Shown piece after piece: positions 5,223 to 33,976 of a DNA stretch of 36,621 nucleotides (the stretch's first letter is position 1; the number at the start of each line of letters is the position of its first letter). Under the pieces are notes generated by a model that did no database searches, was not told the origin of the DNA, and saw only the letters and a program-made list of their open reading frames with translations. The DNA comes from a bacterium (GTDB lineage Bacteria; BMS3Abin14). A program made the translations under genes and the position numbers. The stretch covers positions 1 through 36,621 of the forward strand of contig JARGFZ010000026.1 in assembly GCA_029210965.1 (NCBI GenBank), given 5' to 3'.

Positions 5223-5337
5223 CAAAGTTGATGACTTCGTAAAAAGTCATCATGTAAGGAAAGTGAAAATGACACTTTTCGCTTTCCGAGGAGCAAAAAA
5301 CCGATTACGGACTTTTTGCGACCCTATCAAAGTTGAT
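5223..5337. mobile_element. MITE-like palindromic element, short copy
   Basis: A short copy of the element also found at 22804-23127 and 33810-33976. It is flanked by a 10-bp direct repeat CAAAGTTGAT (5223-5232 and 5328-5337). It starts with the TGATGACTT..AAGTCATCA hairpin, contains the GGAAAG..CTTTCC hairpin and ends in GGACTTTTTGCGACC. Compared with the other copies it lacks the GC-rich hairpin and the AATCAATGAC hairpin, so about 55 bases are missing. No coding capacity is present. Confidence 0.75.
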
Positions 5338-22082: not shown

Positions 22083-22790
22083 ATGCTGAAAATAAATAAC
22101 ATCCACACCTATTACGGTAATATCCACGCCCTGAAGGGCGTGAGCATAGAGGTTTCCGAAGGGGAGATCATAACCCTTATTGGGGCCAACGGTGCCGGAA
22201 AAACGACGACCCTGATGTCTATCTCCGGGGTTGTTCCCATCCGGGAGGGAGAGATCCTTTTCCAGGGAGAACCGATCCACACCAGGCCCCCCGACCAGAT
22301 CGTCGGTCTCGGGATATCTCAGGTTCCGGAGGGTAGACTTATATTCCCCGGGCTTACTGTGATGGAAAACCTGGATATCGGTGCCTTCCTGAGAAAGGAT
22401 AAAGCCGGCATAAAGGAAGATCTGGATTATGTTCTGGATCTGTTCCCGATCCTGGCTGAGCGCCGACACCAGGCGGGAGGCACCTTGAGCGGAGGAGAAC
22501 AGCAGATGCTGGCCATCTCTCGTTCACTCATGGCCAGGCCGCGACTTCTTCTCATGGACGAGCCTTCTCTCGGACTTGCCCCGATCATCGTGGAGCGCAT
22601 TTTCGAGATCATCAGGAAGATCAATCAGGAGAATCAGACGACGATCTTCCTCGTAGAACAGAACGCCAACATGGCTCTGCAGATCGCCCACCGTGGTTAT
22701 GTCATGGAAAACGGGCGCATAACCCTTGTTGACAGTGCCAGAAACCTGGCTACAAACGAGGATGTCAAAAAAGCATATCTGGGGATTTAA
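22083..22790 (+). CDS. livF: Branched-chain amino acid ABC transporter ATP-binding protein LivF
   Basis: A 235-residue ABC ATPase with Walker A GANGAGKT (34-41), signature LSGGEQQ (135-141) and Walker B LLLMDEP (155-161). The IHTYYGNIHALKGVS opening and the EGRLIFPGLTVMENL segment are typical of LivF. With LivG it powers uptake of branched-chain or related amino acids. Unlike the usual livJHMGF order, it stands upstream of livJ and is separated from it by a 318-bp tandem palindromic repeat and a second promoter region. Confidence 0.93.
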   Translation: MLKINNIHTYYGNIHALKGVSIEVSEGEIITLIGANGAGKTTTLMSISGVVPIREGEILFQGEPIHTRPPDQIVGLGISQVPEGRLIFPGLTVMENLDIGAFLRKDKAGIKEDLDYVLDLFPILAERRHQAGGTLSGGEQQMLAISRSLMARPRLLLMDEPSLGLAPIIVERIFEIIRKINQENQTTIFLVEQNANMALQIAHRGYVMENGRITLVDSARNLATNEDVKKAYLGI

Positions 22791-22803
22791 AATCCTGACG
22801 TTG

Positions 22804-23127
22804 AATATTGATGACTTCGCAAAAAGTCATCAATGCGCCCCTGCCGGGGCGCCCAAATCAATGACCGGCAGTATAAGTCATTGATTTGTAAGGAAAGCGA
22901 AAATGACACTTTTCGCTTTCCGTGGAGCAAAAAGCCAATAATGGACTTTTTGCGACCATATCAATATTGATGACTTCGCAAAAAGTCATCAATGCGCCCC
23001 TGCCGGGGCGCCCAAATCAATGACCGGCAGTATAAGTCATTGATTTGTAAGGAAAGCGAAAATGACACTTTTCGCTTTCCGTGGAGCAAAAAGCCAATAA
23101 TGGACTTTTTGCGACCATATCAATATT
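22804..23127. mobile_element. Tandem pair of MITE-like palindromic elements
   Basis: Two almost identical 159-bp copies (22804-22962 and 22963-23121) separated and flanked by the direct repeat AATATT(GAT). Each copy holds five hairpins: TGATGACTT/AAGTCATCA, GCGCCCC/GGGGCGC, AAATCAATGAC/GTCATTGATTT, GGAAAGCGAAAA/TTTTCGCTTTCC and a terminal AAAAAG/CTTTTT stem. The ends share an inverted 12-bp core TCGCAAAAAGTC. No open frame of significance is present. It splits livF from the other liv genes. Confidence 0.85.
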
Positions 23128-23196
23128 ACGCAGGATTTTAAATATGGAAAAGCCTGAAGCGGTATTCAACCTCTGTTTAGGGAGTGTATTTCCATA

Positions 23197-33809: not shown

Positions 33810-33976
33810 TCAAACTTGACAGGGTCGCAAAAAGTCCGTAATCGGCTTTTTGCTCCTCGGAAAGGGAAAAGCGTCGTTTTCCCTTTCCTTACAAATCAAT
33901 GACTTATATCCGGAGTCATTGATTTGGGCGCCCCGCGCGGGGCACATTGATGACTTTTTGCGAAGTCATCAAACTT
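33810..33976. mobile_element. MITE-like palindromic element, inverted copy
   Basis: A full-length copy in the opposite orientation to those at 5223 and 22804, flanked by the 8-bp direct repeat TCAAACTT (33810-33817 and 33969-33976). All five hairpins are kept. The long stem reads GGAAAGGGAAAA with TTTTCCCTTTCC, where the tandem copies have GCG paired with CGC, so the change is compensatory. With its flanks this accounts for most of the 365-base gap 33738-34102. Confidence 0.85.

Follow-up and report, generated by a model that had tools for sequence, protein, structure and literature searches.

A hairpin-rich miniature transposable element, probably moved by an IS1182-related transposase, in one family of BMS3Abin14 bacteria

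Copies of the element in the window and their hairpins

The stretch of DNA analysed here (the window, 36,621 nucleotides) is the contig JARGFZ010000026.1 of the assembly GCA_029210965.1, a bacterium of the BMS3Abin14 lineage; it corresponds to contig C26 of G000, a 3.19-Mb draft genome in 157 contigs. It contains, at three loci, four copies of a short repeat that is described below as a miniature inverted-repeat transposable element (MITE). These copies had been noticed in an earlier reading made from the letters alone (the sequence-only reading), and re-reading of the sequence found all of them at the places given. Two identical copies are arranged in tandem on the forward strand. Copy 1 (22810-22962, 153 bp, GATG...TATC) scores 178.9 bits with the covariance model presented below, and copy 2 (22969-23121) was recognised by sequence comparison and by the same model. 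A third copy (33818-33970, 153 bp, 181.2 bits) lies in inverted orientation on the reverse strand, and a short one (5230-5328), on the forward strand, lacks two of the internal hairpins. Every locus is bordered by a 6-bp target-site duplication, assigned from the sequence and from the statistics of such duplications: AATATT on the left of the tandem (22804-22809), between its two copies, which have it in common (22963-22968), and on its right (23122-23127); AAAGTT on both sides of the short copy (5224-5229 and 5329-5334); and AAACTT, or AAGTTT on the strand of the element, around the inverted copy (33812-33817 and 33971-33976). The location of the element had been read correctly, but the outer six bases then counted at each end belong to the duplication and not to the element. 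The element is thus defined as GATG...(A/G)TC, of 153 to 155 bp, with the ends GATGACTTCGCAAAAAGTC (or GATGGACTCGCAAAAAGTC) and GACAGGGTCGCAAAAAGTCC; its inverted ends are summarised as GAyrrnnTCGCAAAAAGTC. Full-length copies contain no open reading frame of 80 amino acids or more.

As single-stranded DNA, a copy of the window is predicted to form five consecutive hairpins (-50 kcal/mol, z = -13.4 against shuffled sequences), the maximum number previously proposed. They were delimited in copy 1 from the pairing in the alignment and from folding, together with covariation for H3 and H4. H1 (22810-22831) is the left terminal inverted repeat, GATGACTT-CGCAAA-AAGTCATC, and H5 (22927-22953) the inner part of the right one, GCAAAAAGCC/GGACTTTTTGC; both hold most of the end sequence. 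Between them are H2 (22835-22852, GCGCCCC/GGGGCGC), H3 (22854-22888, 12 pairs, four of which have compensated copies) and H4 (22892-22921, 12 pairs). H4 is the long stem in which paired changes were first noticed, and the changes quoted then were confirmed. The tandem copies have GGAAAGCGAAAA/TTTTCGCTTTCC where the inverted copy has GGAAAGGGAAAA/TTTTCCCTTTCC; the short copy shows GGAAAGTGAAAA/TTTTCGCTTTCC there, which includes a T-G wobble.

A dispersed family with a 6-bp target duplication

Allowing up to three mismatches, 85 left ends and 171 right ends were found in the genome of the window, against 0 and 1 for the respective reversed-pattern controls. A covariance model, as the sequence-only reading had proposed, was trained on 55 copies and gave at least 151 matches in this genome. 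The four copies of the window are members of a family with at least 150 copies in the genome. With the same model the element was recovered from 11 of the 12 genomes of its GTDB family (five of them with at least 74 matches each) and from none of 29 genomes outside this family; the 12 genomes searched from the phylum all belong to the one family. Named records with the left end are the metagenome-assembled genomes SZUA-178, ZodW_Metabat.265, CSMAG_1715 and PFL40. No plasmid match of value was obtained for the element, and no description of it was found in the literature searched. Many draft contigs start or stop inside a copy (for example the ends of C13, C15, C20, C42, C60 and C79 of G000): the MITE fragments these assemblies, which explains many of the contig breaks.

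The flanks of 59 out of 100 copies of the window's genome display an exact 6-bp match, whereas 200 shuffled pairings average 4.7 such matches and never exceed 11, and no register shorter or longer than 6 bp gave anything comparable. Where a copy sits at an unusual target, its two flanks still repeat that 6-mer, as with ATAGAT, AAACAT and ACCTTT. The targets follow a symmetric consensus, TTnAAnnTTn[AANNTT]nAAnnTTnAA, with phased AA and TT. Comparison of the flanks across copies revealed neither symmetric complementarity nor a hairpin preference at the targets; this lack of complementarity and the 6-bp duplication do not fit a stem-loop replacement of the IS1272 type. From the inverted ends and the 6-bp duplication at AANNTT, the repeat is a MITE of the DDE type, neither a REP/RAYT element nor an RNA gene. 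It combines inverted ends, absence of coding capacity, target duplication, many dispersed copies and ends in common with an autonomous element.

The sequence-only reading had also pointed to a possible RAYT gene. A REP or REPIN element moved through single-stranded DNA by a RAYT (Y1 tyrosine) transposase would account for palindromic ends, high copy number and compensated hairpins such as those of REPINs (PMC3116915), and Y1 proteins are present in the GTDB family. However, most of the Y1 loci are devoid of matching ends, those with the core sequence have only MITE copies nearby, and the matching ends belong to a DDE-type insertion sequence (IS). Moreover, the target duplication is clear, and Y1 transposition is not known to make one. 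This origin is extremely improbable, and the RAYT idea was abandoned.

Concerning the arrangement of the copies, the tandem (22804-23127) has a single duplication common to both units, and five other tandems of the same orientation occur in the genome. The six head-to-tail pairs, at most 8 bases apart, are located in G000 at C13:40114, C26:22810, C29:23279, C29:26827, C44:10653 and C50:1815; one is identical and the others have diverged. The tandem of the window (region 22790-23140) is downstream of an ABC transporter gene, between AAAATCCTG and CAGGATTTT, so that the insertion split an apparent small inverted repeat; such insertion is not a general rule across 78 copies. In the sister species G001 the orthologous site has no MITE, and the intergenic region is too diverged for the junction to be read. 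Longer composite arrays repeating H4-like stems were also observed (L142, L146, L153 and L154, on contigs C1, C11, C1 and C29 of G000). They hold a related module, GAGCCAAAGTC...GACTTTGGTGAT, with a second hairpin whose arms are different yet mutually complementary.

Compensated stems and the timing of substitutions

In 55 copies of the window's genome, changes on both sides affect six pairs and 38 cells, where shuffled data give on average 3.2 pairs and 7.3 cells. The set was widened to 107 copies, 25 of them from relatives, and compared with 300 shuffles. Two-sided changes were then observed in 16 of 50 pairs (at most 10 in the shuffles), with 105 compensated cells (at most 36) and 21 additional Watson-Crick types (at most 12); the exact significance of these values is uncertain, since shuffling breaks the relatedness among copies. 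When the partners are slid by one to three columns, pairing drops from 95% to 47-62%. Most of the compensated cells are in H3 and H4. The compensatory changes noticed in the window thus have statistical support.

The substitutions of 80 copies of the same genome were divided into singletons, which mostly arose after insertion, and variants common to at least four copies. Singletons are as frequent in stems (0.43 per site) as in loops (0.50 per site; p = 0.53), and 24 of the 40 testable ones in stems break the pair. Common variants, on the other hand, are over four times rarer in the stems (0.18 per stem site, 0.81 per loop site; p = 2.5e-8), and 12 of the 15 testable ones in stems retain pairing. 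The contrast between both classes has p = 0.0004, or 0.001 when the H3 loop, which varies in blocks, and the loops of the ends are excluded; all these p-values are guides, because subfamilies appear to exchange blocks and common alleles are then not independent events. Together, these distributions indicate that pairing is maintained in multiplying lineages but not once a copy is resident. Folding therefore seems to count in multiplication, not in a function performed wherever a copy resides. The sequence-only reading had proposed that the folded form matters, and had named equal substitution rates in stems and loops as the observation that would refute it. Equal rates were found for the singletons but not for the common variants, and the proposal is supported only for the copies that multiply.

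This pattern bears on the possibility of a structured RNA or a bidirectional terminator serving the host at each site, in which the hairpins would be kept by selection on the transcript. Stable folding, real covariation, the intergenic position of the hairpins and, on the minus strand, two weak sites resembling terminators agree with it. Against it, singletons are as frequent in stems as in loops and mostly break pairs. As regards placement, 59 of 63 copies with enough flank fall outside predicted genes, and coding sequence makes up about 85% of the window. Copies between tandem genes are neutral in orientation (22 along the direction of the genes, 18 against it), and among the copies with enough flank there is no preference for the 3' ends of genes and almost no convergent site. 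G-U and A-C mismatches are equally represented (28 and 27 pairs), although random orientation of insertion weakens this test of strand polarity. In the Rfam scan of the window only a tRNA exceeded the gathering score; the element reached sub-threshold, chance-level scores. Neither the placement nor the mismatches suggest an RNA that is read from a single strand, and we consider a host RNA function improbable.

Compensated stems could also be a product of mutation, by template switching between the arms of a hairpin (quasipalindrome correction), without selection on folding. Several adjacent pairs are indeed changed at once in some stems. In the diverged copy L161:2853-3013 (L161_2853; G000:C18:9052-9212), GGG/CCC of H4 has become CCC/GGG over three adjacent pairs with pairing retained, and in copy L022 a pair survives a private double change. 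But template switching at resident copies would correct private stem substitutions, and these match the frequency of the loops and are mostly unpaired. In addition, wobble intermediates exist among the common variants at 46/78, 47/77, 53/71 and 91/104, as stepwise substitution predicts. Template switching as the general explanation is unlikely, but it could still act during the active replication of the element.

The candidate mobiliser and a possible role of folding

As previously stated in the sequence-only reading, no transposase is encoded in the window. The DDE_Tnp_1 genes of the GTDB family were collected and their ends inspected. Those of the window's own genome were rejected, as their ends do not match, and unmatched copies were also considered: 14 of the right ends listed have no model match, and in the 12 loci inspected around them no transposase with these ends was seen inside. 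Another DDE_Tnp_1-type IS, coding for 464 amino acids, adjoins a cluster of copies in L186 (G000:C29:22287-25781) and seems to start inside the H4 of one of them.

In sister genomes, an IS-borne transposase gene with the ends of the MITE was detected, and it is likely the mobiliser. The IS, of about 1.66 kb in G006, codes for an intact protein of 520 amino acids with the domains DUF772 (34.5 bits, cut-off 23.1) and DDE_Tnp_1 (23.4 bits, cut-off 23, a marginal score). Its best NCBIfam profile is IS1182 (NF033551, 116.3 bits, E = 1.6e-33); no solved structure was found by sequence. Copies in G006, G009 and G010 all begin exactly at GAYGG..TCGCAAAAAGTATCATTC or GAYGG..TCGCAAAAAGT with different flanks, which defines the end of the IS. 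The first 18 bases in G009 are identical to the MITE variant L087 (18/18), and 17 of 18 end bases in G010 to the variant L030. The 3' ends read GATGGACCCGCAATTAGTCACGC and GACGCAATTGCAATAAGTCACGC. The flanks AAGGTT, AACCTT and AATATT match the MITE target, and two others match less well. A homologue of the transposase on a Microvirga plasmid (36% identity) has GACGGGGCGGTAAAAAGT at both ends. The earlier description as MITE-like is thereby strengthened.

In another explanation, H1 and H5 may be kept as two inverted transposase-binding sites per end and not for folding. At each end of the MITE the core GCAAAAAG/CTTTTTGC, or else its AAAGTC part, is present in either orientation, and few parts of the element vary less than the outer core. 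However, the second inverted core is missing from the ends of the IS, and doubled sites leave H2 to H4 unexplained, as these have no core of the terminal inverted repeat, and most compensated cells are found in H3 and H4. We regard doubled sites as possible but doubtful; they or template switching may account for part of the pattern.

Most probably, the repeat is a non-coding MITE of about 153 bp that the IS1182-related DDE transposase moves in trans, with hairpins kept in the multiplying lineages. Judging from the sequences, the transposase would recognise the end GAyrrnnTCGCAAAAAGT common to the IS and the MITE, and would cut the two strands six bases apart at a symmetric, AT-rich target around AANNTT, giving the 6-bp duplication. 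The folded form would most likely be DNA, as hairpins or cruciforms that supercoiling or replication exposes. That it helps the mobilisation of the element is, in our judgement, an evenly balanced proposition. We hold it rather less probable that the multiplication of this DDE-type miniature transposon depends on the chain of DNA hairpins, the transposase or the replication machinery acting on the folded element.

Several observations weigh against this interpretation. The transposase is under the curated IS1182 cut-off (116.3 against 270 bits for NF033551), and its gene was not detected in the window's own draft assembly, where it may have been lost or, as a repeated IS, collapsed. No single IS copy has an exact duplication on both sides, the flanks in G006 being different (AACCTT and AATATT). 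The strongest point against a simple requirement for DNA folding is that the ends of the IS form no hairpins like H1 and H5, so that the transposase is not obviously in need of them. Finally, target duplications are intact around short copies that lack H2 and H3, and both hairpins may therefore be dispensable. In these copies (the one at 5230-5328 and others in this genome and a sister species) the right arms of H1 and H3 meet at AAGTCAT, and the junction differs slightly between copies. This argument has a limit, as at least one short copy lost H2 and H3 after insertion: one insertion is common to the window's genome (L011, 153 bp) and a sister species (L257, 102 bp), with equal flanks, and is most simply explained by a loss in place. 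The copy at 5230 likewise looks like a deletion derivative.

Among known systems, RUP is a bacterial MITE whose ends match an IS (PMC2229807). The element resembles RUP, Correia/NEMIS, ERIC and MITEAba12 (PMC2229807, PMC10969869) in being short, non-coding, intergenic and abundant, with inverted ends, target duplication and very stable predicted folding, but it differs from them by its five separate hairpins in a row, each end forming its own. Its target duplication, of 6 bp, is at AANNTT and not at TA, and its matching IS is IS1182-like. Like REPINs (PMC3116915), it is miniature mobile DNA in which hairpin changes are compensated and selection acts on the element itself; REPINs are however linked to Y1 tyrosine transposases, whereas here a 6-bp duplication is made and the ends are those of a DDE-type IS. 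The candidate mobiliser resembles the IS1182 family, including IS1272, by its best profile and its DUF772 and DDE_Tnp_1 domains, but IS1272 replaces stem-loops and leaves no duplication (PMC5678879), in contrast to the duplication and the absence of hairpin preference observed here, and the mobiliser is below the curated cut-off of the family. The bcr1 and other repeats of the B. cereus group (PMC6542083) are similarly mobile repeats of 100-400 bp, with up to 130 copies, in one bacterial group, but their mobility is tied to TTTAT motifs and a mechanism like site-specific recombination.

The element is a parasitic DNA repeat found in well over a hundred copies in one little-known bacterial family and probably moved by a separate transposase gene. 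Hairpins of bacterial repeats are usually taken as RNA signals for the host. Here, the separation of singleton from inherited substitutions suggests that folding is kept by the multiplication of the element itself and not by a role at the site, and this test is applicable to any repeat family. As a candidate transposase accompanies the element, the dependence on folding is directly testable. If multiplication does depend on the hairpins, non-autonomous elements of an IS1182-like system would have a route that relies on structure.
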